From a virus, in the IMG/VR virus record IMGVR_UViG_3300037485_000837, positions 1 through 28,876 of that record: 28,876 nt of DNA. One strand, 5' to 3'. Positions 3,546 through 26,753 of this stretch are shown piece after piece (the stretch's first letter is position 1; each line of letters starts with the position of its first letter). The notes beneath the pieces were generated by a model. The model saw nothing but the letters and a program-made list of their open reading frames with translations, ran no database searches and was not told the origin of the DNA. The position numbers and the translations under genes were made by a program.

Positions 3546-3749
3546 ATGAAGAATTGGACTGTAGAAAAGAAAGATGAAATTGAAAGTATATTAATTAGTA
3601 TGTGGGCAAGTCTTGGAATGGATATTCCGAGTAACTATGAAAATATCGTACAAGATTGTTATGAAGATTTATGTACGGTAGCTGATCCTGAAAATTGGCA
3701 TTCAGGAGATGTTGCAATAGCATTCAGAAGGTGGATAGAATCCAAATAG
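3546..3749 (+). CDS. Small hypothetical protein
   Basis: 67 residues, unrecognised, acidic in the middle and ending in a basic patch (AFRRWIESK). Four Trp in so short a protein, and helices predicted by eye around residues 5-22 and 28-42, suggest a compact helical domain. The ATG begins at the base after the TGA of the upstream gene, a coupling arrangement. The gene ends in TAG at 3747-3749, showing that TAG is a normal stop in this phage. It is the last gene of the plus-strand block, directly followed by the hairpin terminator. Confidence 0.68.
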   Translation: MKNWTVEKKDEIESILISMWASLGMDIPSNYENIVQDCYEDLCTVADPENWHSGDVAIAFRRWIESK

Positions 3750-3793
3750 AAAGGAGGAAGTTAGCTAAATTTAAAGCTTTCTTCCCCCTTTTT
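3750..3793. terminator. Hairpin terminator between convergent gene blocks
   Basis: AAAGG/CCTTT and GGAAG/CTTCC (3750-3760 with 3781-3791, one A-C mismatch) continue across a TT/TT bulge into AGCT/AGCT (3763-3766 with 3775-3778), closing on a short AT loop. A run of five T at 3789-3793 finishes the plus-strand copy; on the minus strand the stem is followed by TTTCTATTT. It begins one base after the stop of the plus-strand operon and 20 bases beyond the stop of the minus-strand operon, so it can serve both. Confidence 0.75.
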
Positions 3794-3813
3794 AATGTCC
3801 AGAATATAGATGG

Positions 3814-6800
3814 TTAGTCTATAAAATACTTCAATCTATCTTCAGGGTAGAACCAATCTTCCACAGTAGATACCAAAGGGAACATATCTCTTGCCCATAT
3901 ATAAGCTTTAAGATCTCCTTTGTGTCTACCTCTCTCATAACGTGGTATGAGATCCTCATCATCAATAAGCCAACCTGTAGGGTCAATGATCTTACCTATA
4001 CTCATGATATGACTTATCTGATTGACGGCAGCAGCAGGAGAGTTGATGATCTTCAATTGTTCAAGTGTTCCCAATAACGGAAGGTAGAATGCCATTTCAG
4101 TGAAATATCTATTAGCTTGATAAGCTGACATATTAGCTCCCCAAGCAGCTATCTCATCATCATCGTCAATTGAATCTGCAAGTATTTCAAGTAGGATACC
4201 TGCAACCAATGCTGTCATCATCATAGCTACCTCACCAAGTGCTCTTGCTAAGTTTGCTTTCTCAAAATCGTGTAATTTGGAGTAACGGTCTTTAGCTGAT
4301 GCCATAGTGAATTGTCCTTCTCTAAGTTCTTTGAATAGTTGATATATGAATTTTGATGCTGTTCTATAGAATCCTTCAACGTCAGTTTCCATTGACCAGT
4401 TATGATACCTTCCTTTCCAACGTCTGTTGATACCGGGCATCATCCACTTACGATATAGACCCACTATACGCCCCATAGCATATCGTTGATAAATAGCCTT
4501 ATCTGCACTGTTGTAGATACCATGTAGAGATTGATTGATAGATGCTACACGTATTGAAAACGCTGTTATGTCTTCATTCGTGAAATCACTGCCATCAAGA
4601 TTCTTGATACCGTCTTTCAGCTTTAGCTTATGGTCTTCTACATCAAATGCTTCATACAGAGGAATCTGTTCTCCCTTGTCATTAAGTACTTTTAGTTTAT
4701 GTGCCAATGCTACTCCCAAACGAGACTGCATTTGATGTTCTCCCATATGGTTAATAAAGAACAATGCTGACAGAGTGAACATTCTACCGAAACGACCTCT
4801 ATCTGCATTCACACGTGACATACGGTTATCATGATCTTGAAGAAGGTCGAATCGTTCAATGAACAATCGTAGTTTATTCTCTGTACGTAATTTACCTATA
4901 TCCTGCATAAGGCTAGGAACACCTTCTTTAGGATCCCAATATACCTTATCAGCATACATTACATCATCAATTCCTACATGCTGATTTGCGAATGATTCCT
5001 GTCTGATAAGTGAGTTACCGAGTATCACGTTATTGAATCCTGCAAATGCGTTAAGAGCAAGTGTGCTTAACGCAGAATATCTGTTGAGAGCATCTGCCAC
5101 TTTGCCCATATCTACAGTACCTAACAACTCTTCTTTCTTCCACTCACCATATAATCTCATGTCCATTACCTCACGATACATTCTATATGGATTACCCCCT
5201 TCAGTGATGACCTCTTCACTACCTTCTTTCTTTATTTTACGTACTCTAAGGATATCAGCAGTCATTTCCGATACATCTATAATGGCACTCAATGCAGAGT
5301 GTCTATTTGCAGTATCAGCAAATGCTATCATGGAAGCTGTTGCATCCAATGACAATTCATTCATATCTTCAAGTTTTCTCATGAAGAAGAGAGGCACTTG
5401 TTGTATCTTACGTCCATTTGCGTCAAGCCCTAACACACCTCTTTCGGTTTCATCTGCACGTACTGTAAATGCATCTTTCACCATCTGTGATAATACTTGA
5501 GAGGGATTCGTCTTCATTCTCTCAAGATCATCCTTACGTATCTGAGGCATGAGGGTACTATTACGGTATTCAGCAGACATATGAGAAACCTTCTTATCTC
5601 TCATTGCAACCCATGCATCATAATATGCTTTTCTTACAGGATCTTTCATGAGTTTCACAAACGTGTCATTCCCAAACTTGGATATTTTAGGTTGTGCAAA
5701 TTCTCTACGATAACTTATTACAGTCTTATTATCTAAAGTGGTTTCGACCATACGCTCACTTTTCCAATCACTTAAAAGAGTTTCTGCCCGTTTTACTTTT
5801 GGAGCAAGTGCTATATCCTGTTTAATGAGTTCAGCTATCCACTTATTGCCATATGTAGTTTTAAAGTGCTTTATTCTCTCTCTATCTTTCTTAAGAGTGA
5901 ATATCCTATTGTAAATAGCAGTTTCCTTTTGTTCAAGGATACTTTGCCACTTAGGATTCTCTTCAAAGTTTTCAGTAAAGAATTTAGCTATTGCGGTATT
6001 ATAGTCAAGAAGTTTCTTTTTACTCATACTACTTCTCTCAAGAACCCTTTGATTATGAGCATCATATTTAGTGTAAGCGTCTGTACCTTTAGATTCAAGG
6101 TAGGCAAGTTTATTTTTAAAGAACTCAAGAGCAGCTTTTTTATCTCTTACTTTTGTTTTCTTTATATTTCCATGAAAATATTCTTTTGCATTGGTAACTT
6201 TTGTGTCAGCATCTGCTGCTATCTCTGGTTTTCTTTTATCACTTTCAATTTCTTGAATAGCAAGCTTTAGTTCCTTTTTTCTTTCCTCAATATCATCAAT
6301 TTCAGGATCTGGTGTCAACTCAAATCTCTTACGTAAATTGGTAAAGAATTCATTTATTGCCTTTTCTACTTTAGAAGTATTTATCTTCGATATGTAATTA
6401 CCTGTAGGAACACCATTTTCATCAAGTTCATACATCCATTCAGTATTGAGCATACCGTTCTCTCGTGCTACTTCGTGAAAGTTGATAATGGTCTTAGCAT
6501 CATCCTCTGTTTGAAGATTAGCTGCTCCTTCTGCATTCTTATGTGTCCTATCCATAAGACCTATGATGTCATCAGCACTTTCAGCAGCACTGTTCACCCA
6601 CATGGAAATTGTCCACATATCATTATGTGTAGACTTGATATTAGCTTCTATATCAGCTAATTTAGCATTTCTTTCCTCTTCTGTACGAAAGAAAGGATCT
6701 TTCATGATAAGTCCTTTAGCATGATCAAGTAATAGGATACCTGCATAATCCTTATATGTCTGCTGCATAGCATCCATACCTGAACGTATATTCTGTAATG

Positions 6801-8706
6801 ATCTCATTATCAGATCCACCTGTTCAGAAGGATTACCTTCTCTATCTATGGTAGCTTTATGTATCGCCACTTGAGTTGTGAGACTTACAATAGAATCCTC
6901 ATACATTGAGATATACTTGTTCATATCACGTAACACTTCAATGAATCCTATGGTATCACCATCCAATTCACCTGCCGCATAATCATTTCTAAGTCTGTTT
7001 ATTTCTTTAAGAATATGATCAGAACCCTCTTCAACGTGAGCTATGTACTTGACGATACCTGAAGTTACACGCTTCTTATTGTAAGCTTCCAACATCTCAC
7101 CATATATCTTCTGTTCACGTTCGATAAGACTCTCAATACCCTGTCGTTTAACGTCCTGAACTCTATTATATATGAGTTTCATACTACTATCAAGTTCGTT
7201 ACCAAGAGCATTCAATAGCTTACTATTCTCAAATTTCTTTCTGAACTCTTCGTACTTATCGTCTTTGGGTTTTTTAGCTTTTTTACTACTTGGCCTTTGC
7301 ATAAAGATACCTTTACCCTCTTGAATACCCTCTTTTATCTGACCGGTATCTCCCCTCATTACCTGATTGACAATATCATTCAAGGCATTTTCAATGCGTA
7401 ATTCCTTAGCAGGATTGCTTTTCTTGAAGAACTGTAAGAATGCATTCCATATAAGCTCTAATCTTCTCTTCCAAATAGGACGTTCATCAAGTATCTCATC
7501 ACCTAATCGTTTCTTAAGGATCTTTCCGAGTATTTCAAGACGTACCATCTCCATATCACCATCATATTCCTCAATATAGGCTTCCGAATGATTTTTCCAC
7601 TCCGTAGTACTCTCAATGACAGATAGTGCGTCAATCACACGTTTATCATCTTTGAGAGCATACAGTACGAAGTGACTCAATTCCTCAAGACTTGTATACT
7701 TATCTGCACGACCTTTATCAATTGCAATTACTCCTCTCAACATATCAGCTATACCAACTGCATGTAAAGGTTTTCCATAGGTCATCTCATACCATTGAGC
7801 ATATTCATCATATGCTTCAATACGTATTCCCAATTGAGACATAATGCCTTTTACAGCACCTTCTATCTTAGGATCTTGCGGAAGAAACTCTTCTTCCTGT
7901 TGTTGAATGAATACCTTGGTATTAAGATCAGGAGTTATTCTTATCTCATTCCAAGTATTACCATACTCATCAGTAACTTGCTTTACATTCTCTTTACCAA
8001 ACTGTTTTTCTAATATATTACCTACTTTAATTTCATAAAATGCTTCAATAGGTTTTAGTTTCTCTATACCTTGTGATTTAAGTTCTTGTTTTTGTTTCTC
8101 TAGCCTTACTATATTTTTTTCAGCTTTTTTTAGCTTATTTTCTAAACCATCCTCAAGCATAGCATCTGTATAATTACTATCAAAAGGTGTAACTTCATAT
8201 AAATTTGTAGGGTTTTCTAAAAAGTCTCTATTGTTTTTTAGTTCTTTATCAATTTTATTAATTTCATCAGCAATAGTTTCATGTCCCTCTATCTTAGCAG
8301 CGGTTTCACCTTTAGGAAATAAAACTTTTTCATAACCTTTCTTAGCACTATCTTGAATAATAGATTTAACAAAGAATGTTACCCAATTATTATCACGACC
8401 TAATAAATGTAAAAACTGATTTTGATTACCAAAGTTTTTATAATTTTGGTTAGTTGCTAAGTTATAATAAGTAATTGCATCTTTATCTGAAATAAAACCT
8501 GATTCATTAGAAGAATTTAAGAACCATCCATCGTCTGCTTTTTCAATTTTATTATTTTTATAATAAAATACTTCTGGTAGATCTTTAATAGAATATTCTT
8601 CTTTAGCTAAAGATTGTCCTTTTAAAAACTGTGGATTTACAATCTTATTAATAAATTCTTCTTTTGAAGAATATATTACTCCTTCATATATATATTTACA
8701 AGCCAT
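3814..8706 (-). CDS. Giant virion/cargo-type protein with polyvalent-type N-terminal half-domain and degenerate zincin
   Basis: 1630 residues, the last gene of the minus-strand virion block. Residues 96-260 match the second half of a domain found in phage and mobile-element polyvalent proteins: NQFLHLL, W108, GYEKVLFPKGE (124-134), FYE (223-225), then ITPD (257-260). A coiled-coil stretch lies at about 185-215. At 341-345 EELSH, in a context like the HEAFH metallopeptidase of the 4360-residue neighbour, looks like a zincin fold that has lost its first His, so probably inactive. The middle is long, charged and helical. Toward the C-terminus there are hydrophobic segments, notably ~1491-1509 (ALVAGILLEIL region), consistent with a membrane-inserting ejected protein. 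The ATG overlaps the stop of the endonuclease gene (TAATG), and a TAG sits two codons upstream, fixing the start. The first ~600 bases are far more AT-rich than the rest. The cargo role is by analogy with crAss-like phages. Confidence 0.82.
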   Translation of the reverse strand: MACKYIYEGVIYSSKEEFINKIVNPQFLKGQSLAKEEYSIKDLPEVFYYKNNKIEKADDGWFLNSSNESGFISDKDAITYYNLATNQNYKNFGNQNQFLHLLGRDNNWVTFFVKSIIQDSAKKGYEKVLFPKGETAAKIEGHETIADEINKIDKELKNNRDFLENPTNLYEVTPFDSNYTDAMLEDGLENKLKKAEKNIVRLEKQKQELKSQGIEKLKPIEAFYEIKVGNILEKQFGKENVKQVTDEYGNTWNEIRITPDLNTKVFIQQQEEEFLPQDPKIEGAVKGIMSQLGIRIEAYDEYAQWYEMTYGKPLHAVGIADMLRGVIAIDKGRADKYTSLEELSHFVLYALKDDKRVIDALSVIESTTEWKNHSEAYIEEYDGDMEMVRLEILGKILKKRLGDEILDERPIWKRRLELIWNAFLQFFKKSNPAKELRIENALNDIVNQVMRGDTGQIKEGIQEGKGIFMQRPSSKKAKKPKDDKYEEFRKKFENSKLLNALGNELDSSMKLIYNRVQDVKRQGIESLIEREQKIYGEMLEAYNKKRVTSGIVKYIAHVEEGSDHILKEINRLRNDYAAGELDGDTIGFIEVLRDMNKYISMYEDSIVSLTTQVAIHKATIDREGNPSEQVDLIMRSLQNIRSGMDAMQQTYKDYAGILLLDHAKGLIMKDPFFRTEEERNAKLADIEANIKSTHNDMWTISMWVNSAAESADDIIGLMDRTHKNAEGAANLQTEDDAKTIINFHEVARENGMLNTEWMYELDENGVPTGNYISKINTSKVEKAINEFFTNLRKRFELTPDPEIDDIEERKKELKLAIQEIESDKRKPEIAADADTKVTNAKEYFHGNIKKTKVRDKKAALEFFKNKLAYLESKGTDAYTKYDAHNQRVLERSSMSKKKLLDYNTAIAKFFTENFEENPKWQSILEQKETAIYNRIFTLKKDRERIKHFKTTYGNKWIAELIKQDIALAPKVKRAETLLSDWKSERMVETTLDNKTVISYRREFAQPKISKFGNDTFVKLMKDPVRKAYYDAWVAMRDKKVSHMSAEYRNSTLMPQIRKDDLERMKTNPSQVLSQMVKDAFTVRADETERGVLGLDANGRKIQQVPLFFMRKLEDMNELSLDATASMIAFADTANRHSALSAIIDVSEMTADILRVRKIKKEGSEEVITEGGNPYRMYREVMDMRLYGEWKKEELLGTVDMGKVADALNRYSALSTLALNAFAGFNNVILGNSLIRQESFANQHVGIDDVMYADKVYWDPKEGVPSLMQDIGKLRTENKLRLFIERFDLLQDHDNRMSRVNADRGRFGRMFTLSALFFINHMGEHQMQSRLGVALAHKLKVLNDKGEQIPLYEAFDVEDHKLKLKDGIKNLDGSDFTNEDITAFSIRVASINQSLHGIYNSADKAIYQRYAMGRIVGLYRKWMMPGINRRWKGRYHNWSMETDVEGFYRTASKFIYQLFKELREGQFTMASAKDRYSKLHDFEKANLARALGEVAMMMTALVAGILLEILADSIDDDDEIAAWGANMSAYQANRYFTEMAFYLPLLGTLEQLKIINSPAAAVNQISHIMSIGKIIDPTGWLIDDEDLIPRYERGRHKGDLKAYIWARDMFPLVSTVEDWFYPEDRLKYFID

Positions 8707-9425
8707 TATCTATTGTGTTTTTTAAAACTTCTATTTATTTGTTGAACTCCCGATTTAGAAATACCATATAAAGGAGCAATTTCTTTATACATTTTACCCT
8801 GCTTTATAAGTTCAATTATTTCACTTCTTTGTTCTTCTGTTAATTTACCTTTTGAAGATACTTTATTAGTTCTTCTTATTAAATGCTTATCTTCTTCTTG
8901 TACAATATAATTAGGTATATTTTTCCAGCTTCTTCCTGCTTTAATCTCAGAAATAGTTGTAATTTTAACATTATACCTTTCAGCAATTTCTTTTAAGGAA
9001 ATATTAAAAGCTAACATTTTCTTAATATCATATATCTCTTCAATAGATATTTTAGAATTAGTTTGCCCCTCATTAAAAAGTTTAATCCTTGTTTTTGACA
9101 TTTTATCTATAGTTGAAGAATCTAACTCTACACAATCTCCACCTGTAGTTAAATTTAAACCTTTAGTATTATTTCCTCTAAAACTATCAAACTCTTTAAC
9201 ATACTTTTTTTCTAAAGCATTTAATTCTTCTCTTGTAAAATCTCCTTTTTCAATAATTTCAAATTTATGATTTTGTACACCATGTCTAAGAAAAGAATTA
9301 TATAGTAAAACTTGAGCAGAGCATCTAAGTTCTTTATATCTATTAAGTCTATATTCAACATCTTTAGATTGTCCAATATAGATTTTACCTGTTGGTGATG
9401 TTATTTTATAAATTCCTGATTTCAT
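8706..9425 (-). CDS. GIY-YIG homing endonuclease
   Basis: 239 residues from the chosen start. The N-terminal nuclease domain shows GIY at 4-6, YIG at 16-18 (spacing typical of the family), the catalytic Arg in VEYRLNRY (26) and the metal-binding Glu in LEKKY (72), followed by GLNLTTGGD. The rest is a DNA-binding tail with two helix-turn-helix-like units, ISLKEIAERYNVKITTISEI and MYKEIAPLYGISKSGVQQ. Such enzymes cut an intron-less or gene-less allele and are copied into it by repair. An upstream Met at 9458 keeps the frame open, but it overlaps the -7 box of the gene's own promoter, so the Met at 9425 is the better start. It sits between two genes that appear to be halves of one, and its stop overlaps the next start. 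Its GC content is about 22% in a counted 60-base sample, well below the flanking virion genes. Confidence 0.93.
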   Translation of the reverse strand: MKSGIYKITSPTGKIYIGQSKDVEYRLNRYKELRCSAQVLLYNSFLRHGVQNHKFEIIEKGDFTREELNALEKKYVKEFDSFRGNNTKGLNLTTGGDCVELDSSTIDKMSKTRIKLFNEGQTNSKISIEEIYDIKKMLAFNISLKEIAERYNVKITTISEIKAGRSWKNIPNYIVQEEDKHLIRRTNKVSSKGKLTEEQRSEIIELIKQGKMYKEIAPLYGISKSGVQQINRSFKKHNR

Positions 9426-9444
9426 ATTTAGTATATTAGAAGTA

Positions 9445-9476
9445 CAAAGATACAACATTAATTTGTAATTTCCAAA
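9445..9476 (-). promoter_or_regulatory. Bacteroides-type promoter of the GIY-YIG gene
   Basis: On the minus strand TTTG (9476-9473) is followed after 20 bases by TATCTTTG (9452-9445), an exact fit to the Bacteroides primary-sigma consensus TTTG (-33) and TAnnTTTG (-7). The -33 box begins two bases after the stop of the 456-residue gene, and the start codon at 9425 would fall some 13 bases beyond the expected transcription start. This gives the endonuclease transcription independent of the virion operon and supports a Bacteroidota host. Confidence 0.75.
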
Positions 9477-9478
9477 TT

Positions 9479-10849
9479 TTAATCACATTTAATTTGTAAT
9501 TCTCCACTCTTTTTTAGTTCATTAATAATTTCATCAGGGCTTTTTATATCACGACTTTTTTGGAAAATGTCGCTCTGTACTTCTAATATTCTACGAGTTT
9601 TAGTAGGAACACCTTTATTAATATTTTTAACAGTATTATAGGCTTCTATTACCCATTCATCTTTTAATGATGCTTGATTTCCATTTTCATCTTTAGCGAT
9701 ACCACCTACAACATACCATTTACCATCTTTTCTTTTTTCATATACTATTTGTTCCATAGTATCAGGTTCAGAAAAAATAAATCTATTTTCAACTATTTGC
9801 TCTACTTTAGTAACATCTGCAATATTATTTTGTAAAGATTTATCATCACTTCTAAACCATCCAATACCTTTATCTGTAGCAAATTGAGCATGACCTTTAA
9901 TACTAGGTGTAATTAAAGGTGTGGAAAACTCTTGCTCTGTATAATTAGTACCACCGGGTACTGTTAAATTAGCGTAGTATTGAGTAGGTTTAGTATTTTC
10001 CATATCAGCAATCTGTTTTTTACTTTTTTCAGTAAGTACAGGTCGCATATCAATTATATTACCATCTTCATCTAACACTTCTTCATAATCAAATTCAGGT
10101 TCTATTGGTTCAGGTTCAAAATTACCATCACCTCTATCTACCATTTTATAATCTTTACTTTTTTCTTTAGCAGTATTAACTTCAACAGTATAACTATAAT
10201 TACTGGCAAGTTCTGTAATAATCTGCTCTCTTGTATTATCACTTATTTTATCATTAAGTTGATCTTGCTTAAATAGCTGTTTATAGTTAGCAAATCCGCC
10301 TAATTCATTAAGTGTCTTATCAAGTGTCCATCCTACTTTTTGAGCTTTACTGAACATTTGAACTGCTCTGTCAGACATTAAGATATCAACAGGTTTGAGT
10401 GTATAATCTACTTGTTTAAAGATACTTCTTCCATCAGTAGTTTTCAGAATTCTCATCTGATTACCAGACTTTTTATGGTACTTTCCCGGTATAGGATGTA
10501 ATTTAAAAAGTTCTTTACGTACCTGAAGATTTACCTTATTGATCTTTTGGGTTGCTCTACCAAGATCTCCAAATTCTTTCATCCAATATGAATTGGAGAT
10601 CTTCTTTTGAGAAAATGATTCTTTTGTATGACTGACAATGAATTCAGCAAGTTCATCTACAGATAATTTACGTAACTCACGTGCTTCCTTATACCAACCT
10701 ATCTCAGATAGAAGCTTAGTTCCTGTAGGAACTATTTCATTGTTACGCCTCCAAGATTCTGTTGCGTCCTGTTCGTTATTATCAAGATTATGTAATAATA
10801 CCTTCCACTCTATAGTATGTTTAGGTGGGCATTTTTGTCCTTCTTCCAT
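9479..10849 (-). CDS. Virion/cargo-type protein with the first half of a polyvalent-type domain
   Basis: 456 residues. The N-terminal ~200 are helical and charged, unrecognised. Residues 291-434 look like the first half of a domain seen in phage polyvalent proteins: YYANLTVPGGTNYTE (GGTNY at 299-303), GH at 319-320, GWFRSDD (330-336) and ILEVQSDIFQKSRD (421-434). In that family the EIQSDWHQKGR-like motif is normally followed by a W-K-A-G-W-TGE-like block; here that block is in the separate 1630-residue protein, and the protein stops 22 residues after the motif. The start overlaps the stop of the giant gene (TAATG), so the two are translationally coupled. A homing-endonuclease gene follows directly. 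I take this as the upstream part of a split ancestral gene. The C-terminal half has a lower GC content than the N-terminal half. The biochemical function is unknown. Confidence 0.8.
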   Translation of the reverse strand: MEEGQKCPPKHTIEWKVLLHNLDNNEQDATESWRRNNEIVPTGTKLLSEIGWYKEARELRKLSVDELAEFIVSHTKESFSQKKISNSYWMKEFGDLGRATQKINKVNLQVRKELFKLHPIPGKYHKKSGNQMRILKTTDGRSIFKQVDYTLKPVDILMSDRAVQMFSKAQKVGWTLDKTLNELGGFANYKQLFKQDQLNDKISDNTREQIITELASNYSYTVEVNTAKEKSKDYKMVDRGDGNFEPEPIEPEFDYEEVLDEDGNIIDMRPVLTEKSKKQIADMENTKPTQYYANLTVPGGTNYTEQEFSTPLITPSIKGHAQFATDKGIGWFRSDDKSLQNNIADVTKVEQIVENRFIFSEPDTMEQIVYEKRKDGKWYVVGGIAKDENGNQASLKDEWVIEAYNTVKNINKGVPTKTRRILEVQSDIFQKSRDIKSPDEIINELKKSGELQIKCD

Positions 10850-13800
10850 TATACTCCTTTACAACGTTTAACTATTTCTTCTGCTTCATTTGGTTTTACT
10901 TCAATAAGGTCTTTGAATTCCTCATTATCAGTAAACCCTTCAGCTTCTTTCTGTATACCTGCAATTGCGTCTATCGTCAGTTCCTGTATCTTCAATGCAC
11001 TCTTTATTATACTACCATACATGCTCGCATCAAATGATGATGTATTAGGATTACTCAATCTACCTAACATATCCGCAACCACTCTCAATGTTTTTTTACG
11101 GTCTTCAGGAGTAATAGTTTCATTTTTATTGATAATAGGAGCAGCAGGTTTTACTATCTTTTCAGGGGTCAATACTTTAATATATTTATATATACTCTGT
11201 ATCTGATGTGTCAATCTATTAAGGTCAAACTCAATAAACTGATTGTTTATACCCAAAGGAGGCAGTACTTTATACAGAGCATTATTAGCACCATCGTTCT
11301 TTACATACTTAAGTAGTACAGTAGCAGTTCTCTTACCTTGCTTTATAGGAGACTTGATGTATTTCACAATTTCTCCTTGCTTACCTGTTATAGGGTCATT
11401 TGACGCCATATTTACAAATTTAGAAGGTACTGCCAAATGAAATTCCCCATCCAATTGTCTGGTGGATATCTCCTTATTCTCCCGCGCATCCAAGAATGGT
11501 ACACTCTTGAGTTTTCTATAACCGTTACGTACTATCTGCTCAAATAGACCTTCCATCTCATGTGGATCTGTTATTCTATCGAACATAGGTTTCATTCTCT
11601 CACTACCTTTCTGATATTCTCTATAGCTGTAATCAAGGTTAGTATTATGTAGAGTGAACATGAAGTCCATAGGTACGAGATCTGTAAAACTATTGTAATT
11701 GAAAGTATGTCCTGAACTGAAGAATGCATATTTAGCAAGATCTACTCCGAGTATTCTCTCTTCTTTAACTTCAGAATATATCATACGTTTCCAAGCATTC
11801 TTGATAGCTTCCATGTGTATCTCATCAAGACCGTTCCTATTGAATGCAATATACTTGAAAGGTATTCTATCTTTCTTTTTATTACTATTCTCATCAGTAC
11901 GTGTCTGAAACTGTTCCAATATTACATTGTATGGACTATCAGGATTCGCATTTCTATACTTACTCAATCTCTTAGGAGTTGTAGTAATTACACGTTCCAC
12001 TTCAGAAAATGGTTTACCTTTCACTTTAATATAAGACTCTTCACCGATCATCATATTGAAATCGGTATGTTGGAATGTCTTATAACCAGTTACAAATGCA
12101 GTCATTATATAACGGTATATTGAGTTTATCTCTTCTGCATCCAATTCACCATTTCTCTTGTACAGTGCAAATCTCTCTACTATTTTATCGAATATAGGTT
12201 TTTCATAAGGAAGATCAGCTATATCAAGAATGATATTCTTTCCCTGAGTTGTCTTTTCTATAAATTCTCCTTGAGACTCTTGTGTTACAGGAGCTTCTTG
12301 TGTACTATTCCAATCATATTTATTAATTAGATAATCTAAAGCAGTAGCATGAGAGGGTTCTCCAAGTTCTTTATAGTAAAGAATAGATTTATTTTTAAGT
12401 GTTCCCGATTTAATCTCTTCTCTAATCCAATTAGCTCTTTTATCTTGTGAGCTAATTACCCAATCAATGTATTTTTCAACAGCTTCTTTAACAGTTTCTA
12501 CTTTAATTAACCCTTGAGTTTTTCCAGTAGGAGCATGACTAAATGGATTACCAAAATGCTCTTCTGTATTAGGTATTCTTGTAGATATAATACCTCTTGC
12601 ATTAAAAGCATTAGTCATGTTCTTTAAGTCTGACCAAGGTTTTATTACTACATTACCAGTAGCTGTCTTATCTCCTAATTGCGAATAGATATCAACTTGT
12701 TGTTCTTCTACTGTTGGTTGTTCTACTACTTCTTGAGGAGTTTCAACTATTTCATCAGATACATTATCAATCTCTGTAAAATCTATCCATCCCATATTGA
12801 CATGAAGATTCTCTGATGCTCTTGACATACCTACATAACCTAATGACTGTCTCTCTGTAGACATCTGCTCACCATTTTCAAGTATCTTAATATCAGATTT
12901 TATGATGGTATTCGCATCAAAGAATACATTCTTAGTAGTTCTTCCCTGTGATTTATGAATAGTTATTGCATGTCCATAATCAATACCTTTTTCAAGAATG
13001 AATTTGGTCTTTTCGCTACCATAAAGAGTTCGATGTTCATTAGATGGATTTGATTTATCATATTTTTCCATCTTATTGGTCTTATGATTATATATCATAT
13101 CCTGATCAATATCCAACTTTGCTAATCTTTGAGCCAGATTATCTATTGCACTATAATAACCTGACCATCTTTTTGCTCTTTTAGCTTCTTCTAAAGCTGA
13201 GTATAATTGTGCAAATTGGCTACTTAAATATTTATTGTTCAGGTTAAGTTCCTTATCAGTAAGATCATTTTCTAACGCTCCTTCAGAATTAAGTGGTAAG
13301 TATATTGTACGGGAAACTTCAGGTACTTTACGGAATCCTTTTTCTCTAAGATCATTAAGTCTTTCGGAACGTAAGTTTAACTGATAACCTGTATAAAAAT
13401 CTGTCTCTACTTTATTTATGTTCTGAATAGTAAATCCTACACTATTAGCAAGATTACCTCTTTCTATCTGTTTAGAAGCATATCCAAGATATCCCATCAC
13501 AATATCACCTACCTGTGGTGGACCTGTTCTTTTAAAGATACGCTCACGAATAAGCTTATTCATTTCAGATACACTATTATTGGTATACCCTATAAAATCA
13601 GTATTCTCAGGATCACTTGTTACTGCATCTCTGAGTTGTATAAGAAAATCTTTTCTATTATCATAGAATTTAAGATTTTCAGTATTCTCCTTGGTTTTAA
13701 ATAACTTGAATGTCTTAGAGTCTCTTACATTCTGTAGAACATTTTTGATATTATTGTTACTTGTTCTATGGATAATATCCAAGTTAACCGAAGGATTTTC

Positions 13801-16800
13801 AGTAAAAGCGGTACTGATACTCTTTTCTTTAGGATTTGTAGCAGCTACTTCTGGTATCTGTTTTTTATCTCCTAAGAAGATTATCTTATATCCAAGATCT
13901 CCGATCTCTTTAAGACGTTGATAATCCTTTTGTTGAAGCATAGATACTTCATCTACCACTATATAGTTACTAAATCCTAATGCCTCCTCTGCTTTCTTAG
14001 AAAGTATTGCTTTTCCTGTCTTTTGATTAGTAGCCATACTACTTGCTACTGTCATAGGAAGATTGGTATTACCAGTTTTCATAGTAGCAACTGCAAGCTC
14101 TACAGTAGCAGCGTGGGTAGGTGCTAAATACAGCATATTAGAACTTAGGTATTTACTTAGATAACCTATAATAGAAGTTTTACCAGTACCGGCTGCACCT
14201 TGAAGAACAAATCTATCCTCATTACTTTTAGTAAAATCTATCAGCTTCTTAAGTGCGTTTTCCTGATCACTTGATAACTTGAATTCAGTGTTTATAGTCT
14301 TACCTTTATATTCAAAGATCGGTTTACCTTCTTCAAGGGATTTAGTAGGGGTCTGTACAACAGGTTTTACAAAGACTTTTTCAGTGACTTCATTAGAGGG
14401 CATCTCAATACCATACTTATAGAAACTCTCTACAAATGGTACTACTCCACTCTCAATGAACTTATTGAATCCTGTGATATGTTCTCCATCAGCAGCCTTA
14501 GCATCTCTCCAAGTTCTCTTAGATACAATGATATTTGCGTACATAGGTCCTGCTGCTTTACCTACAGCATCGAAACGCATACCGTTCATTGTCTTAGTAA
14601 GTGCTTGTGTCTGCTTGAAGGTACTCCTCATCAATTGATAGATACTGAAGTTTGTTTTCAATGTATCAATACTATCAGGATTCTTAAAGGTATCAACTAT
14701 GGTATTCTTAGTAACCCTTACTTCAGTACCACTCTTCTCAAACGCTGTTAGTGCTTTTGTACCTTCTGCTTTAATGATAGATTGTCGCACTTCTTCCATA
14801 AGAGTATCCAACACCTTATCAATAGCTACAACAGACTTACCTTCTTTAGCAAGCTCCTTACTGAATCTTTTAGCAGCAGGAGATGCTACCATCAACATTA
14901 CAGCATTAGGATCATGTCCTACACGTATCATAGTGGCTATAAGGTCACTTGTAGTCGTAGTGATATTAAGGAATGATGCCATTGGATCCTTAGCATTATC
15001 AACATAAGCAGCAATGAATTGTGCTAATGATGAAGATTTAAATTTCTTAAAAATATCAAACTTATCGGAAAGATCTTTCAGTACTTTTCCATTGAATGCT
15101 ATTCCTTTAGGTAATTTGAAATCTCCTTCAGTTACCAATGCATGATGTACGTTCTGATTAGCACCTTGACCGATAAGTGCAGCACCTGTCATATTACGAT
15201 TGAATATCTCTCTCTGTGTAGATGGCAACATCATATTGAGGGTTTCTGCAACATTACCCTCAAGCGCAAGTACTTCCTTCTTAGCTTCTTCAAGCAGTTT
15301 ATAGTTACCCGGAGTAAGCTGCTTTTTCATAGTATCTGAATGAGATAGTATAGCATATTTGATATCCAGTATAAGGTTATCTCTACTCTCCTTAGTGGTC
15401 ATTCCAGATTCTATCTTAACAAGACCATCTTTGGTATTCTCAAAGTTATACATCATACCGAACAGCTTATCAATATCAAAGTCAAGACCTGCAATTGTAG
15501 TAACTTCATCAGGCATGATAATCTGCCCACCTACTCCTTCAAGATAACCTATTACCTTAATATGGAACATTGAATATTTACCCTCTGTAGGGATACGATA
15601 GAATACTCCCATCTTCAGTTCATCAGGAACTTTAGAGACATCCAAATAACCATCTTCACCTACATAGTGATCATACATTGCTCTTGCATGTGCAGGCATT
15701 AATACTTCTACTTCTTTGATGTAAGAATTACCATTCTCATCCTCTGCGATCACAAGTTCAGGTTTACGAAGTCCTGCTGCATTTATCTTCTCATAACCAT
15801 AGGAAGAAGCATTAAAGAGAGATACTCCATATGCTTTCTGTTTAGTTACATTGTTCTTAAAGTATGATGACAGAATAGCTTCTACCTGATATACTATATG
15901 AGCATCCCATAAAGGTAATTTAGTTTCTGTCCTGTTCTTATCTACCCAATCAAGTGCATTGAGCATATCTTCACCCATCTGTCTCTCAACAACTTCTTTT
16001 CTAAGTGCTGTGACTATACCATTGAGATCAGGTGTACCATCAGGCTTATAGAATATCTTCTTAAGTTCATCAAAAGACTCTTTGATATTAAGGTTGATGG
16101 CTTCCTGATATTGTCTGAATACTTCAGTGCCTATCATAGGTTTACCTCCTACATTATATGTAAGAGATTTATCCATATCCTGAGTGATAAGCTTACGATC
16201 TTGTGTACCTACATTATTCTCACTGTCTCTATAGTGTTCAGGAGTCTCCTGTTGAATAGCATATTTACTATTCTCCATCCTATGAACAGTCTTGTTATTG
16301 ATATCATCAATGCTATCAAGTCTATTGAACTGTCCTACCTTTACAGCAGAACCGAATATCACTGCATCCACAAGTCGTTTATTCTCATCGAATACTACAG
16401 TACCATCTTTCTTGAACTCGTAACCCATCTTCTCAAGTACCTTTTGAAGTTTAGGATTACCTTTAGCCATTCGAGGAGTAAGTAATGCCTCACTGTTCTT
16501 TATCTGTGTAGGCACTACATGCACATCTCCGTTCTCTCCTGTAATGAATCTATGAGTATAGTTGAATGGTTTCACTACATTCATCATCTCTCCTTTAGGA
16601 TTCTTAGGCGGCTTACCTAATATCATCTCATCATATTGCTCCTGTAGCTCTTCAGTCCATTTAGCAGTTCCAAGATATATCTCTCTCATTCTGAAGAGGT
16701 CAATGACTGTAGCAGCATCTGTATTATTCAAGCCTCCCTTACTAGGATCTTTAGGATCATCTTCTACTCCATAAGCTATGCGTATCCACTTATTCTCCTC

Positions 16801-19800
16801 TCCGGGAAATGTCTTATTGATAAGATCTTTATGCTCTGTGCGTATCTTCTGCTTGTCTACTTCGGTAGGGTCAGTAACATATGCAACATAATAATTAGGA
16901 CGTACGATTACACTCTTACCATTCTTCAGTAGAAACTCATTTTTAGTATTCACTGAGATATGATTCTGTGGAGAGTGTATCTGTTTGATACGTTTGTAAA
17001 CATCCACAAAGTCAACATTACCATCTTTAGATTTATACTGAGCAACATCACCTCCGAAGAGATACATTGTCTGTATATTCATATACATACGATTCATCAG
17101 GTAATCATTCAATCTACCATCCTTAAGACCATCAAGAACATTCTTACCTAACATTCCTGTGTTATCCTCATAACTTATGATACCGTTCTCATCTTTTACT
17201 TCTGTGAGAATATCATCGGTAAAGAGTTTTTGCTTCTCAAGTTTAAGGTGTTCTCTTAAAAGATTCTCTACTTCTTTTCTGAAGTTATCTCCATCGAGAT
17301 TCTTTCCATTCAATCCTGCAAATATCTGATACTTAAGACCATTCTTAATTAGATTATATGGAATATCCTTAGTATCACCTTTATCTACACGTTTCTGTAA
17401 CCATTCGATACGATCTTTTTCCTGTTGTGCAGTCTGAATGAGTTTCTCAAGAATAATAGTACTACTCTCTTTCTTCCAATACATGAAAGCTGTATTACTA
17501 CTATCAGAAAGTATAGGTATCATATAATATGCCCAAGAATCCTCACGGTCTTCTTTAGGATTCATCCAGTAATTGATCTGCAATGCTTCCAACTGTTGTG
17601 GAGACATATTAGCATATTCAATAGGATTGTCCTGACCTTCCATATCGTATGACGTGAAATATGCAATAGCAGTTTTTTCAGCAGCTTTAAGATCTTTCAA
17701 TTCTTCCATTATAGGAGAATTCTTGTAGAAAGCAGTTCTCATATAAGCATCAATGAATGCTACTCTATCAGGTCCTGTAAGATTAAGCATATGATCTAAC
17801 ATGAATCTATTATCCACATTGGTCATTATCTGCTTGTCTCCACTTCTGAATATAGGTTTATATGTATCTTCTTTACCATTAGCAATGGTCTTAGACATAT
17901 CTCTAAGTGCATAGAATTTACTGTCTTTACCATAAAAAGGATTTTTTCCGTCAACCATTGTGGTCAGTACAGCCTCAAATCCACTTTTACCAATGAATGT
18001 CTTAAAGGATTTTTTACCCTCAATTGTCTCTGGAAATACTTTATATAAGGTATCCTTAAGTACAGGCATATTGATTTTCTTCAATATATCAAACAATGTT
18101 TCTACATGTTCTTCTTTAAGAGGAGCATTTTTATCAAGCTTATTTGTTTCAGTTATGAGTACCTTAAGAGTATCCAAATGTTCTTGGGGAACGGTTGATG
18201 TCTCTGTACTACCATCAAACATCGGAGAATTATAGAAACTATCTTTCCAACTCTCTACAATATCCTTAGATAGATTCTCTCTATTGGCTATGAATGAAAG
18301 CGTTTTGATGCTTTGATTTCCCTCTGCATCATATGTCTTTTCACCCGTTACTCCAATGAAAGCTACTTTACGCTTATTACCCATGTTCCTCCACATCTCA
18401 ACAGATATCTTAGAATCATCTTCCAGTATCTGAATCACTTGTTGGTATGAAGGGAACATCTCAGCAACCTTACTGAGTTTATCATTCATTTCACTCTCAT
18501 TACGTGCATCTACAAGACTATTGGATAGCTTTGCATACACCTTCATAGGACTTTCATATATAGGGTATCCTGCAACATCTCTATCTTTCTGTACAGTTGC
18601 GAATGCCATCTTAGCACGTTCAGAAAACTTACTATAGTGATCTCTAAAGACATCTACCTGCCATCCTTCAAGGATACCTTCATCAGAAGCAAGTTCATCA
18701 TGTTCAACATCTTCATCAGATACTATTCTGTCAATTGATATTCCAAGACCGAATCTTACTGAAAGATCCTGTGCTGCACGAGGTAATATTGATGAGAATA
18801 CATATCCACCATTTGAGGTCTGAGTAGCAAACTTGGACACTACATCTGTAATGTATTTTGCACCATCTTCTGAATATTTAGCACCATTCTTTTTAAAGTC
18901 AGCTTGAATTATCTGATATGCAGTAGCATATAATCCTTGAATAGTAAATCGTGAACGTACTTGTTTATCATATTCTCTAAGAGTAGCCAATTCAACTACT
19001 GTTTCTTTAGGAAGTTTCTTTTCTCTACGGTAGAGGTCTTCTAATACTTTTCTCCCTGCTACTGATAAGACTCCTTTTTTACTCACCCGTAGCATTTCTC
19101 TTACAGCCTCTCCTTTAGAAAGATTCTTAGATAGTTGTAAGTGACTTCTGAATATTTCAATTCCTTTTCCTATAACTACTGAGTTGATAGTATTAATAGC
19201 CATTGCTTCTCCCCTTGGAGTAAGTCCTTCAGAACTATATGTTCTACTGAAACGTGTTATATCCTTAGTAAATGTTATCTTCTGCTTGAAAGGATTATAT
19301 AGACCCTTATCAATACGATACATATAATCGTCTATGGTAGCATCACCTTTGATACCTATTCTCTCAGCAGCTATCTGTATAAGATGGTATAGTTTCTTAA
19401 AGAAACTCAATACTTTTGCTGATAGACCAGTTTTCATTTTACCTTGAGTAAGTTTATACTCCATAAAATGATCTGCCATATTCTCCTCCTTATCAATAGG
19501 ATTTTTACCTTTGAATTCTTTCAGTAGAATACCTCTCTCATTTTCATTCAGTAGTATATGAAATACAGCATGAAATGCCTCATGGTACACTGTACCTTCC
19601 TTAGCATGAGAAGCTATGTAAACACTACCGTTTTTGAACAATCCCCATAATTCAACTCCTCCATTATCAGAGATCTTCTTAAGATCATCCAATACACTTA
19701 TTGGAACATTAGGATAATTCTCTTTGAACCATGCTAATTCTTCTTCACGATTCCATACTTTATAGTCTCCTTTAACTGCTTTGCGGGACATTTTAACATC

Positions 19801-22800
19801 TCCACCTTCTTCAGTATCTCTACCAGTATCAAAGTCATCATCTTCAAAGAAAAATCCATCTACAGCCCCCTCTTCATTTACCTCTTCACCTATATTAGTT
19901 ACTATATCTTCAGGTATTGAGATGTCATCTTCTGTAACAACTTCTTTCGCTAATATAGCATTTATTTCCTTTGTTTTGTCAGTAAACATCTCCACTTCTC
20001 TTGGAGATAATTGCTCACCTATTTTTACTTTCTCTGCAAGTGATTGTATTCTCTCTTTTGCAACAACGCCATTATCTATGAACTGATTATATTCAACTTG
20101 AGAAATTACATCTTCAATTATAGTTTCTTCAACTACAGGTTCAATTGGTTCAGTTTTGACAACAATTGGTTTTTCTTTCTTAACTACAGTAGCTTTCTCT
20201 TTAGTCTTACTCTCAACAACTCTCTTACCTTTCTTACCTACCTTGAACTCATCAAGATTAAGCTTTGCCTGCGCAGCAAGTACAGTAGGCTGTCCTACTG
20301 CAAGATTAGTGGTTATCCATCTGTTCTCTGTGATATATTCATTATATGTCTTTCCTCCTTTATATTTCTCAGGACTGTTCAAACGATCATGTCTGATACG
20401 CATGATGAGATTAGAGAATATATCTTTCATTTCATCAGCAGACCGATAAGTAGTAATAGAACTTTCATCACCTGATAGTGAAATGGTCTGAAAAGTACCA
20501 TCTGTCATATATGTAAGTTGTACAGAAAGATATTCCTGTAGTCTCTCATTGACATTTGCAATATATGCTACTGAAGCCTCTGAGTTTATCATGTTCTCCT
20601 TCAATGTCCTGTTGGAGAACATCTCATCAACTATTGCATTTACTTCTTTAGTAGCAAGACCTATTTCTCTTAATTTAGCTGTATACAGTCCAATAGGAAC
20701 ATATTTACCTGATGCAGTTTGAACATGTAGTACAGTTTTACCTCCCATACCCATGAAACCTTCCATACCTCCTTGATGTACATCAGATCTGTCAATACCG
20801 AATTGTTCTGCTCCAAGATTATCAAGTATCTCAGGTGTACCTTTCAAAGTATTGATAACTCCTAAATATAGTGGTCCATCATAGTTACTAAGGTTATTAC
20901 GTTTCTGATTTGATATATTGAAGTGACCATTGGTTCTACCTCCTAAAGTAATACCGAAGTCTTTCTCTACTATATAAGAACCTTCTTTTTGTCCAGAAGC
21001 TGACCATTCAGTATATATCTGATTACGTAGTTCTTTTATTACATCAAAGTTAGGAGATCCTTTACTTGTCTTTGAAGTTCCTCTGATCTTACCTAATCGT
21101 AACTTTTTACCATCATACTCAATGAAAGGTATTATTGTGATATAATCAGCAGGTTCTCCTTCTGTAGGAGAATACTTATCATCCAAAGGAATTTCAAAGA
21201 ATATCCTCTGTCCATATAAGTTTGAATTAGGGTCATTAAGAACATCAAATTCCCAATCTTGAAGAAAAGGGGCATCTACTTCTCTATCTCCATCAACGAT
21301 GGTTCTTACATTAGTATTTGATAATATAGGATCACCATCTTCATCACGTAGTATATATACGTCACCTTCCTTACCCTCTTCAACATTGATATATCCTTCT
21401 GCAATTGCTGAAGAAATTGACATTTTTACAGGCCTTCCCTCTTTACCGAATATGGTAATTGTATTACCATTACGTGCAAACATAAGATATTGATGATTCT
21501 GTACGATTGCTCTATCTGCTGTAGAAGATTGAGTCTCATCCTGTGGCATAAGATCCATATACTCCTCATGTGCAGCTTTCTCATTGATAGCTTCTGTAGG
21601 AGTTATCATCGCGTCTGTCTGTGCTTTCACAGCATTCGCAGCCATTTCAGAGTAGTATGCATTGAAAGCATCTCTGAATTTACTATTTGATCTATATTGT
21701 GTAAGGAAAGAGTTTATATCCTTTACTTTAGAAATATCAATACCTGTCTTCTCTGCTACTTCTTTAAGCTCCTTATGTAACAGTGGAGTTGAAGAATATC
21801 TACTTGCAGCATCTGCGTCAATACTATCCTCTGTAGGTATAGGAGCATTCTTCTCTGCTTCCTTAGCTAATTTACTGAGTTTAGCATTAGCTTCTTTGGA
21901 TACAGTAGGAGAGGCAACAATTCTATTTATGAGATCAACGGAAGTATCATTATTGATAGCTCCCAATGCACGAGACTTGAATAACTCCTCATCATCTTTT
22001 TTAACAGCAGCTTGTCCTTCAGAAGTTTGCAGACTTACTAACTCTATATTAGCAAGTTCCATCTCAAGTTCGTTACGTGCTTCTTGAGCAGCTACTTTAG
22101 TTACTTTAGAATCTACCGATGTTGGATTTTCCTTTTGACTTTTAACATCTTTAAGTTCCTCAAGTTCTTTAGTTACACGTGTTATTTCCTTATCAATATG
22201 ATCTAAGAACTTCTGTCCATAACTCATCTTCTTGAATTCAGGAGTATCATGAGCCATTTTATTAGCTTCCAGTGTAGCCTTTTGAGCTTCAAGTTTCCTC
22301 TTATTGAATTCTTGTGGTGTCAATTGAGTACCTGCTTCTACTCGTGCATCAGATTCTTCTTTAGCAAGTTTTTGACGTAGTTTATCTTTAGCACGTTTAG
22401 TGAACTTAAGGTCTAATTCCTTTTTAAGTAAAGTAGGATCCTTACGTGTATCATCTGATATTTCAAGGTATTGTTCTTGGTAGAATGCAAGATCTTTCTG
22501 AATATCTTCATTACGTTCTCTGAAATCCTTTATCTGTTCAGGAGTCATCTGCCACTTTGAAGATAATTCTTCATCAGTAGATTCTCCCATCTTCTTATAG
22601 GTATCAATGGTATCCTGTAATTTACCTTCAGATGCCTGTTGGTAAGCATGTGAACTGAATTGAGCATCATTTATCTTATGTGCAGTTACAAGATCTCCTT
22701 CATCAATTGCTTTCTGTTTAGCAACATCCAATTGAGCATTCTTAGCAAGTTTTTCCTGTATCTTATTGATACCTGCACCTGCACCAGTGAATACTCCACC

Positions 22801-23933: not shown

Positions 23934-26753
23934 TTATTTTTTAAGATTCTTACCTACTGCATTAGGATTACCTCCCGATTCTGCCATCATGATGACGTAT
24001 GCCAATTGTGCATCAGTAAGGTCAAATTCATTTGCCTTACCTGTATATGAATTACCAAAGCTGTTCTGTAATGTTTGTACAAATTCTCCTACATCATTAC
24101 TCTTTTGAAGATCATACCATCCTCCGGGTTTAGTAACTTCCCTCATTGCTTTTATCCAATTACTATTAGGAGTTCCTTTTACAGCATCATTATATGTGGT
24201 CCAATTCTTCCATCCATTTGGAGTATGTCTCACAATGTCAGTACTGAACTGTATATTAAGTGACGGGTCATTAGCAATACTATCAAAGTCTACAGTTGAC
24301 CAATCCTTACCTCCTAATGATGAGAAGTCTCTGTTCTTTGGAGTTTCCCAAGTCTTATCGTTTATCTGCATTAGACCATGATCTTCAGAATCCACATTCT
24401 TAGATTCCATGTGTCTATTCTGATTCATCCAAGTATTGTAAACAACATCTTTTGCAATTACTTCATCCAATACTGTAGGATCTAAATTCTTTTCTTTACG
24501 GATCTCATCCTGTAAAGATACTTTTTTACCATTGATCACAATACTTCCGCTTACTTCGTAAGTATCATCAGAATTATGTATCACATGAATATCTCCAAAT
24601 TCCTTAAGTTGTTCATTTGTAATACCTATATTGGCTACTCCTGATGTTCCTTTAGGAATTGATAGTAATGCATCATGTACAGCATCTTGCATTACTACTT
24701 GAAGATTCTCATCTCCTGTAAGAATACTTGACATTGTAGGAGTTACATCCACTTCATATATTGCACTTGTGAGATCGGTTTCGTCTTTTACTCCTGTACG
24801 TACATACTGCCCCCTCGTAAGCCATTTGTTGACATTTGGATTGTAATAAATGGTCATAGGTTGAAATTCTACAATTCCTTTAGTAAAGTCTCCCATTTTA
24901 TCATTACCTTTTGCTGTTTGTGGTAGATACAATTGATCCATAGAATGCCCTTCAGTAGAGCTTCCTTTAGTATTAAGAGCGTTTATTTTTTTACCATTAT
25001 AAAATGTGTTACTTTCAGGCATCTTTGCAAGTTTTTGAGCAGCACTGATTATCATTTTCTGATTTACAGGAACTTCAGATGCACCTAATTCTCCTCCCTT
25101 AGTATATAGATCATACTGTTTTGCTACAAAGGTTTTATTACCAAATTCTTTCTTGACATTCTTATCAAGTTTTGTGAAGTATTCCTCATATTTTTTAGGC
25201 ACTATTTTACCTCCAACTAAGGTAAATCCTTTAGGAATTTTTAAATCAGAATATGCGTAAGAATCCAATTCTTGTTTGGATAATCCTTTTATATTCTTAG
25301 CCTCAATAAACACTTCTGCTTTTTGTATAGCTACTTTTTCTTCCTCAGAAAGTCCAATTACATTTCCATTCTTATCAAACTTTGGAACACTTCCTTCCCC
25401 TACCTCTAACGCTGTATTCAGAGCTACTGTACCTAAGAGTCTTCGTTTATACAACTTACTCATTGCAGTATTATGAGCCTCCTGTTCCATTTGTTTAGCT
25501 GACATTGATTGTTGAACTATTTCTTTACCCCCAACAACTATCTTCTTAGGTTTATTGACATTTTGTATCTTATTGTATTCTTGGGTAAATGCATCATTAT
25601 ACATTTTAGAATCCTGTTCTCTTCGTTGTGCTACATATTCAGAGCGTTTCTGCTGATTCTGTGCTTCATTCAAATTAGGGTCTGATGTGTAATCAGAAGA
25701 TACGTAATCAAGTGCAGATATTCCATTAGCGTCTTTAAGAGTAAAATAATCAAACCCTGTAGCTTCAACAGCTTTTTTATATCCTTTTTTACCTATTTCT
25801 ACAATAGTAGCACCTGACGCATCTAACATTGATGTTGGCCCAAGAGGTGCTCCTATGATATTTGCCATATCATCACCTTTAGTAGTAGCATCATCTACAT
25901 CTTCTTCTGTGGACTTAGTAGATCGTTTTATTCGTAATCTAAGAGCAGCCTGATCTTCAAAATCTTTTATTGCATCTTCATATTTATATTGTTTACCCTC
26001 TCTGCGATAGGCATCTTTCATGAATGCAATATGACTTTGTGCATCAGGAGAAAGTGTTTCCAATTGATCCAAAGTTACTCCGTCAGAAGATAATCCGTCT
26101 AATATACCTTTAGAGCGTTCTCTAATTGTTGCCATATCGAGATCTCCAACAGAACTACTATAAGATCCATCTTCATTCTTAGAAAATCCTGCAATAAGAT
26201 CTGGCTCAATAATATCTATCATTTCGCCATAAGCTTTTTCTGCTCCCGGATTTACTAATAGATTATAGTCTTTAGGAGTAAATGTATGTCCTGCGTTTAT
26301 TTTATCTTGAAGTCCTTCCATAGAAAATTGACCTGTGGTATCATCATATGCTCCATATCGAGCAGTAGTACCAAATTCAGGTTTAGCCATAGTAGTAGCT
26401 ATGTGCGGCATTAAAGCTCTGTCACTCTCTACACTGCTTACGCGTCTATCATTCTTCCACTTATTCTGAAGCTCTCCATACTTTCTATAAACTCCTTGTA
26501 AGTTACCAGTACCTGCAAGTGCAGTTATCTCATTGATGTCAGCAGCACGTTCCTTATTGATCTGTTGTGCAGCATCCCCTGTGAAGTAGCCTCCTTCAAT
26601 GTTAGCTTCTCCTGCAAGTTTACCTGCTACTAAAGATGCTTGATCTACTCTACCTTGTTTGTATTGACCCATTTTGAACATTTCCTCAAAAGGATACGGA
26701 TCGTATGTCTGTACGAATTCAGTTGGATTCCACTTAGTATATCTGTTCGCCAT
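23934..26753 (-). CDS. Virion/cargo protein with a lysozyme/transglycosylase-like C-terminal region
   Basis: 939 residues. The first ~750 are charged, unrecognised and probably structural (N-terminal MANRYTKWNPTEF, repeated acidic-basic helices). Near the C-terminus RHMES with Glu783 followed by DHGLMQIN (GLMQIN at 793-798) reproduces the ES...GLMQI signature of soluble lytic transglycosylases and goose-type lysozymes, with Glu783 as the likely catalytic acid; KNWTTYND follows where the fold usually has a W-Ty element. Such a domain would open peptidoglycan during DNA entry. The final residues, MAESGGNPNAVGKN (Glu925), look like the beginning of another copy of the same fold, cut short by the stop. 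The ATG follows the upstream stop by two bases, and the giant gene starts two bases after this stop, so the three form one operon. The peptidoglycan role is moderately sure; the rest is inference. Confidence 0.8.
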   Translation of the reverse strand: MANRYTKWNPTEFVQTYDPYPFEEMFKMGQYKQGRVDQASLVAGKLAGEANIEGGYFTGDAAQQINKERAADINEITALAGTGNLQGVYRKYGELQNKWKNDRRVSSVESDRALMPHIATTMAKPEFGTTARYGAYDDTTGQFSMEGLQDKINAGHTFTPKDYNLLVNPGAEKAYGEMIDIIEPDLIAGFSKNEDGSYSSSVGDLDMATIRERSKGILDGLSSDGVTLDQLETLSPDAQSHIAFMKDAYRREGKQYKYEDAIKDFEDQAALRLRIKRSTKSTEEDVDDATTKGDDMANIIGAPLGPTSMLDASGATIVEIGKKGYKKAVEATGFDYFTLKDANGISALDYVSSDYTSDPNLNEAQNQQKRSEYVAQRREQDSKMYNDAFTQEYNKIQNVNKPKKIVVGGKEIVQQSMSAKQMEQEAHNTAMSKLYKRRLLGTVALNTALEVGEGSVPKFDKNGNVIGLSEEEKVAIQKAEVFIEAKNIKGLSKQELDSYAYSDLKIPKGFTLVGGKIVPKKYEEYFTKLDKNVKKEFGNKTFVAKQYDLYTKGGELGASEVPVNQKMIISAAQKLAKMPESNTFYNGKKINALNTKGSSTEGHSMDQLYLPQTAKGNDKMGDFTKGIVEFQPMTIYYNPNVNKWLTRGQYVRTGVKDETDLTSAIYEVDVTPTMSSILTGDENLQVVMQDAVHDALLSIPKGTSGVANIGITNEQLKEFGDIHVIHNSDDTYEVSGSIVINGKKVSLQDEIRKEKNLDPTVLDEVIAKDVVYNTWMNQNRHMESKNVDSEDHGLMQINDKTWETPKNRDFSSLGGKDWSTVDFDSIANDPSLNIQFSTDIVRHTPNGWKNWTTYNDAVKGTPNSNWIKAMREVTKPGGWYDLQKSNDVGEFVQTLQNSFGNSYTGKANEFDLTDAQLAYVIMMAESGGNPNAVGKNLKK

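Follow-up and report, generated by a model that had tools for sequence, protein, structure and literature searches.

A Dda-like helicase and a DUF4326-like domain inserted within the virion RNA polymerase of a crAss-like phage

The DNA that we analysed (the window; IMGVR_UViG_3300037485_000837, 28,876 bases) is a complete IMG/VR record, in which a single open reading frame (ORF) encodes a crAss-like virion RNA polymerase (vRNAP). We are highly confident of its anatomy: a mobile module consisting of a superfamily 1B (SF1B) helicase and a DUF4326-like domain lies within a single-polypeptide, two-barrel vRNAP, and the same modules, which appear to have spread horizontally, are found at the ends of related polymerases. 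The protein runs from a gp47-like N-terminal part through the RNA polymerase (RNAP) core and the internal payload to the RNAP C-terminal part. It has the DxDxD barrel and is homologous to phi14:2 gp66 and crAss001 gp50 over the core, and in combining several enzymatic domains in one giant chain it resembles a polyvalent protein. The polymerase and its insert are laid out as follows, in window coordinates.

10849-23931 (-): crAss-like vRNAP ORF, 4360 amino acids, single open frame (ORF translation)
14392-17586 (-): RNAP core, left flank, residues 2116-3180 (blastp to crAss001 gp50, cr128, cr126 and cr111)
15466-15489 (-): catalytic DFDID motif, as GLDFDIDK, residues 2815-2822 (motif position)
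12214-14391 (-): in-frame insert, residues 3181-3906, 726 amino acids (missing from 124 other vRNAP ORFs and the five closest relatives)
14287-14391 (-): linker 1, residues 3181-3215 (composition; rich in P, E, T and V)
12793-14286 (-): Dda-like SF1B helicase domain, residues 3216-3713, motifs all intact (profiles and motifs)
12703-12792 (-): linker 2, residues 3714-3743 (composition; rich in P, E and V)
12289-12702 (-): DUF4326-like domain with IYSQLG..KT lead motif, residues 3744-3881 (profile, relatives and predicted model)
12214-12288 (-): linker 3, residues 3882-3906 (composition; rich in P, E, T and V)
11116-12213 (-): RNAP right flank, residues 3907-4272, where the polymerase fold resumes (right-side profile E 4.3e-50; homologue model on 6VR4)

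An earlier note on this DNA had proposed that the two polymerase flanks originally formed an unbroken stretch, and insertion into a once-continuous polymerase is strongly supported, because the flanks are adjacent in named phages, in the five closest relatives and in one solved RNAP chain. The two flanks aligned contiguously in crAss001 gp50, cr128_1, cr111_1, cr126_1 and bajarodcaudo virus. We scanned a set of vRNAPs made up of 79 loci found by RNAP together with others retrieved with the helicase and the DUF as queries; among the 125 ORFs with both flanks, the gap between them had a median of 33 amino acids and a second-largest value of 217, against 732 in the window. Homologues therefore do not always bear a helicase at this place, the other 124 ORFs being empty. 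The four closest polymerases (L007-L010), which are 22-32% identical to the window in the left flank and 30-33% in the right, have about 10 residues where the window carries 726, and the RNAP tree groups the window with them at full support in the Shimodaira–Hasegawa-like approximate likelihood ratio test (SH-aLRT). The site is likewise empty in a fifth close relative, L243. For these comparisons the flanks were aligned with the insert removed and with split profiles; a whole-chain MAFFT alignment had put the right flank on the helicase. A 58-row alignment for folding the insert within its flanks misplaced flank pieces and was not used. The block had previously been placed at 12214-14394: the start and the location hold, and the exact end is 14391.

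The polymerase fold does not end before residue 3180, since the solved structure of phi14:2 gp66 (PDB 6VR4) covers both sides of the site. A profile built from 18 homologues that span the site matched gp66 over 1249-2103 (E 1e-81). Modelled across the site with AF2, crAss001 gp50 (predicted local distance difference test score, pLDDT, 76.5) had 6VR4 as its only significant match (Foldseek 4e-28), with model residues 8-950 corresponding to chain residues 1244-2114 (Z 23.9, root-mean-square deviation 5.1, 734 residues). The right flank profiled by itself gave no match to 6VR4, whereas the joint profile and the model did; judged by the profile match and the predicted model, the right flank is polymerase. 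The site maps near residues 610-618 of the crAss001 model, in a loop between helices 598-615 and 624-631. The insert replaces about 10 loop residues, downstream of the catalytic barrel, whose DFDID motif had been correctly placed near residue 2817, and upstream of the polymerase C-terminal part. Because the clamp has three elements, one of them the C-terminal region of gp66 (PMC10770324), the insert probably lies upstream of the C-terminal clamp element.

An assembly chimera, in which two wrong joins set another phage's payload within the ORF, would fit a single contig, the slightly AT-richer insert and an exact-peptide scan of viral contigs, in which the region as a whole had no close relative. 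It would nevertheless need two in-frame joins that restore the same polymerase at a cost of only about 10 residues, precisely at an inter-helix loop; the junctions lack notable repeats, and both flanks retrieve the same relatives, L007-L010. We consider a chimera very unlikely. The AT-richness that the earlier note had remarked on is genuine but slight, with GC contents of 0.329 for the helicase and 0.316 for the DUF4326-like domain against 0.373 and 0.342 for the left and right flanks; all 498-codon windows upstream fall at 0.340-0.393. Removal of the insert from the product as an intein or intron is extremely improbable. crAss-like phages are rich in both elements (PMC7886860), and the adjacent gp49-like gene is broken by a GIY-YIG endonuclease ORF, but a Pfam scan of the whole 4360-residue protein gave no Hint/intein or LAGLIDADG domain that would class the insert as an intein, and there was no Rfam intron match. 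The frame is open throughout, and other vRNAPs carry these domains as ordinary coding fusions.

Both its profile match and its full motif set place the helicase among the Dda-like SF1B enzymes. The PHROG 325 'Dda-like helicase' profile matched residues 3206-3713 (E=7e-62), Pfam AAA_30 matched at 2e-19 and solved T4 Dda (3UPU) at 1.8e-10. The motifs that had been reported at residues 3245-3705 were all located, the set comprising Q (3218-3227), I (GAAGTGKT, 3245-3252), Ia (3269-3275), II (VVDEVSM, 3325-3331), III (LGDKKQIP, 3353-3360), IV (HRTSNN, 3388-3393), V (AITIHKSQG, 3655-3663) and VI (YVGMSRA, 3699-3705). The low-complexity linkers said to bound the block are those listed above, and homology to the helicase of L095, a vRNAP described below, starts at residue 3196, within linker 1. 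The window helicase is closest to L098-L103 (35-47% in the search), every one of them fused to a vRNAP, and free helicases of about 470 amino acids were far more distant matches. A scan of genome_contigs for cellular relatives confirmed none. In the helicase tree the window grouped with L098, L099 and L103 (96/89), nested in a clade in which every helicase is fused (100/100); a second all-fused clade lies elsewhere (98/95). The fused or free state changed 4 times on this tree, compared with 15.3 in shuffles. Walker A and GDxxQ were intact in 26 of 26 vRNAP-fused or giant-ORF helicases.

The helicase is a recurrent vRNAP payload, usually C-terminal, and is not peculiar to the phage of the window. 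It was found in 26 of 148 distinct vRNAP ORFs (22 C-terminal, three N-terminal and one internal, the window), a set enriched by our queries for such modules, so that tallies from it are not frequency estimates. DUF4326-like domains are themselves very common as vRNAP appendages, present in 55 of these ORFs (50 C-terminal, four N-terminal and one internal, again the window), and six ORFs had both. Neither module is internal in any ORF but that of the window; this position alone is unique, and it is known from a single contig. Of the 79 loci selected by RNAP, seven carried a helicase elsewhere in the chain, C-terminal in L010, L039, L044, L047 and L059 and N-terminal in L057 and L061, and a search of 50 of the RNAP-selected records with PHROG 325 gave eight strong matches, seven in frames the size of a vRNAP and one free. 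The presence of a helicase required 12 changes on the RNAP tree, at least nine of them forced by supported branches, and the polymerases with window-type helicases were scattered. Because an all-fused helicase clade is borne by scattered polymerases, we infer from the two trees that this vRNAP-associated lineage spread horizontally, and helicases appear to have moved among vRNAPs repeatedly.

Other domains borne by vRNAPs were NADAR, cpYpsA-SLOG, AlkB-like and, weakly, ART-PolyVal. L008, a close relative of the window polymerase, has a cpYpsA-SLOG domain as its C-terminal payload (4421-5869; 7e-31). L095 (IMG/VR 3300033064_000349, ORF 2310-9752) has an AlkB-like 2-oxoglutarate oxygenase (7e-15), a NADAR domain (4e-15) and a helicase after the polymerase. 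The vRNAP of cr126_1 (MT774391.1; L003, 9687-16895) has an N-terminal NADAR domain (62-189), after which the protein is named (DUF1768). Two giant vRNAPs (MT774375.1, 65825-80149; MT774379.1, 16381-31221) owe their sole annotation, 'DNA helicase', to a C-terminal Dda-like domain.

The chief rival to the explanation favoured below is that the vRNAP could be simply a delivery vehicle, from which the helicase and the DUF4326-like domain would act alone in the host, uncoupled from transcription, in counter-defence, DNA repair or the stripping of host proteins; the internal loop would then be another permissive site. Close relatives do differ in cargo (L010, in the window's RNAP clade, has a C-terminal helicase from the other helicase clade, and L008 has cpYpsA-SLOG), further vRNAPs bear AlkB with NADAR, NADAR, or a weak ART-PolyVal match, module position varies, and polyvalent proteins are already a recognised phenomenon (PMC5512222). 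Such swapping of payloads and change of position fit a pure carrier well. Helicases, however, recur often and in all-fused clades, beyond what a random payload would give, and a DNA motor suits the task of a polymerase. We give this explanation a substantial minority chance.

The DUF4326-like domain is real, and is the less certain half of the payload. Its score against DUF4326 (PF14216), 15.1-15.6 bits, falls under the Pfam curated cutoff of 25 bits, and for this reason we keep the earlier note's label 'DUF4326-like'. Among 31 relatives, the best E value with the DUF4326 profile was 0.0061, and 11 matched at E<=0.1. A confident model of the domain (pLDDT 88.6) found DUF4326 proteins at ranks 2, 3, 6, 7 and 10 in BFVD, the two best with probabilities of 0.97-0.99, E values of 0.013 and 0.052 and template modelling scores (query) of 0.43 and 0.53. 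The model had no match in the PDB, which does not establish a new fold. We found 71 loci with the domain, mostly in a vRNAP ORF and nearly always after the polymerase. Relatives are 37-67% identical to the window domain, and the surrounding polymerases mostly 25-35%; the higher identity suggests strong constraint or recent exchange. DUF4326 has been proposed to process ADPr-linked phosphates (PMC9503650), and by analogy the window domain probably handles ADP-ribose-type or phosphate-linked defence metabolites. At the C terminus of the L015 vRNAP (12068-14899), a weak ART-PolyVal match (4e-4) accompanies a DUF4326-like core, whose lead motif IYSKLNDKTQSENVVI is set apart from it by extra sequence.

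Among known systems, phi14:2 gp66 and crAss001 gp50 share the DxDxD barrel, both flanks and the single polypeptide; unlike the window, they have no insert at the site and neither a helicase nor a DUF4326-like module. The Suoliviridae phages cr50_1 (QOR58058.1, 4774 amino acids) and cr118_1 (QOR58373.1, 4946 amino acids) also have giant vRNAPs with a fused Dda-like helicase, which is C-terminal (4223-4720 and 4433-4905) rather than internal; both chains carry no annotation beyond 'DNA helicase', and no DUF4326-like domain was found in either. The closest helicases, those of L095/L099 (both 3300033064_000349), L098 and L103 (44% for L095 and 49% for L098), are also vRNAP-fused yet C-terminal, and in L095 the AlkB-like and NADAR domains precede the helicase. 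T4 Dda and the PHROG 325 helicases have the same SF1B motif set, but are free-standing enzymes of replication and repair. Polyvalent proteins are likewise very large and multidomain with enzymatic payloads; the window differs in having an RNA polymerase as carrier, with its payload on the inside. The paper describing them makes no mention of crAss phages (PMC5512222). The vRNAP of P23-45 is also joined to another large functional protein (PMC10770324), although its partner is a tape measure rather than a motor and the two are end to end. A literature search for a vRNAP–helicase fusion found none, in a coverage that left out the phi14:2 vRNAP paper and figures.

In the explanation that we favour, the whole chain would be packaged and injected in the manner of crAss001 gp47, gp49 and gp50, which are virion cargo and probably pass partly unfolded through the tail (PMC10172136). 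By analogy with these proteins, the 4360-residue protein would be embedded in the virion and injected, and would transcribe early genes (PMC10172136, PMC7886860). Once refolded in the host, with the helicase still tethered to the polymerase, the helicase would move 5'-3' on one strand and open the entering duplex for a polymerase that is poor at melting, or it might rid the early region of host proteins bound there, of stalled host RNAP or of R-loops. Dda translocates 5'-3' and strips proteins from DNA (PMC11551737). QDE-1, a eukaryotic structural cousin with two barrels, uses single-stranded rather than double-stranded DNA, with a DNA helicase and RPA as its partners (PMC2950127), and a role in coupling transcription to DNA entry has been proposed for vRNAP fusions (PMC10770324). 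That an intact ATPase has repeatedly been kept beside the polymerase argues for a shared task. The joining of helicase and polymerase in the virion and its coupling to early transcription or DNA entry, as the earlier note had envisaged, is plausible. We regard the favoured explanation in full, anatomy plus mechanism, as evenly balanced, and functional coupling of the tethered helicase to the injected polymerase as a tentative proposal that falls somewhat short of even. It is doubtful that the two form one machine with a built-in transcription motor, in which an injected single-chain polymerase holds a 5'-3' helicase in its own fold, such joining having arisen many times independently.

Several observations weigh against the favoured explanation. 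No fused helicase was found in 72 of the 79 vRNAPs chosen regardless of payload, some of which are fragments, and because about nine in ten vRNAPs show none, the helicase is not required for the polymerase to work. The variation in position (N-terminal, C-terminal or internal) speaks against precise geometric coupling. The internal arrangement is seen in one metagenomic contig with no near relative, the RNAP tree came from a quick search with support by SH-aLRT only, and packaging is argued by analogy from crAss001 and phi14:2 only. Proteolysis could also release the helicase. Upstream of the RNAP core, the ORF contains a candidate for such processing.

19234-19815 (-): region resembling the C-terminal part of crAss001 gp47, residues 1373-1566 (blastp 31% over 211 amino acids, E 2.5e-17)
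19570-19584 (-): HEAFH zincin-like motif (HExxH, residue 1450) inside the gp47-like region (motif position)

If the protein were a polyprotein, as the earlier note had called it, this zincin-like domain or a host protease would cut the linkers, freeing the helicase while the split polymerase stays associated. The HExxH motif occurs likewise in cr50_1, and proline- and acid-rich linkers flank the modules on every side; yet cutting would divide the polymerase chain, there is no known cleavage site, and the protease activity of the region is only putative. We judge a polyprotein unlikely.

Beside the vRNAP gene, a GIY-YIG homing-endonuclease ORF at 8706-9458 (-) lies between ORFs 9479-10849 and 3814-8706. 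These two ORFs (456 and 1630 amino acids) both match a single gp49-like ORF found downstream of the vRNAP in relatives, and the gp49-like gene of the window seems to be interrupted by a mobile element. On the other side, 23934-26753 (-) encodes a 939-residue protein, the C-terminal part of which gave weak lysozyme/SLT-like matches. In bajarodcaudo virus 1 (PQ006092.1; L004, 9861-18044), an endonuclease ORF splits the vRNAP gene exactly at the catalytic GSDFD|VDK. The annotated vRNAP frame of cr113_1 (NC_055896.1, 31391-44377), whose protein is annotated DprA-like, has 73 stops under table 11, and a stop codon is therefore probably recoded in this phage.

Annotation hides this pattern, since proteins called 'DNA helicase' are in fact giant RNA polymerases. 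crAss-like vRNAPs carry exchangeable modules (helicase, DUF4326-like, NADAR, SLOG and AlkB), which is pertinent to phages that are very abundant in the gut. Their recurrent acquisition of helicases bears on the question of how a single-chain virion polymerase reaches double-stranded DNA in a hostile cell.

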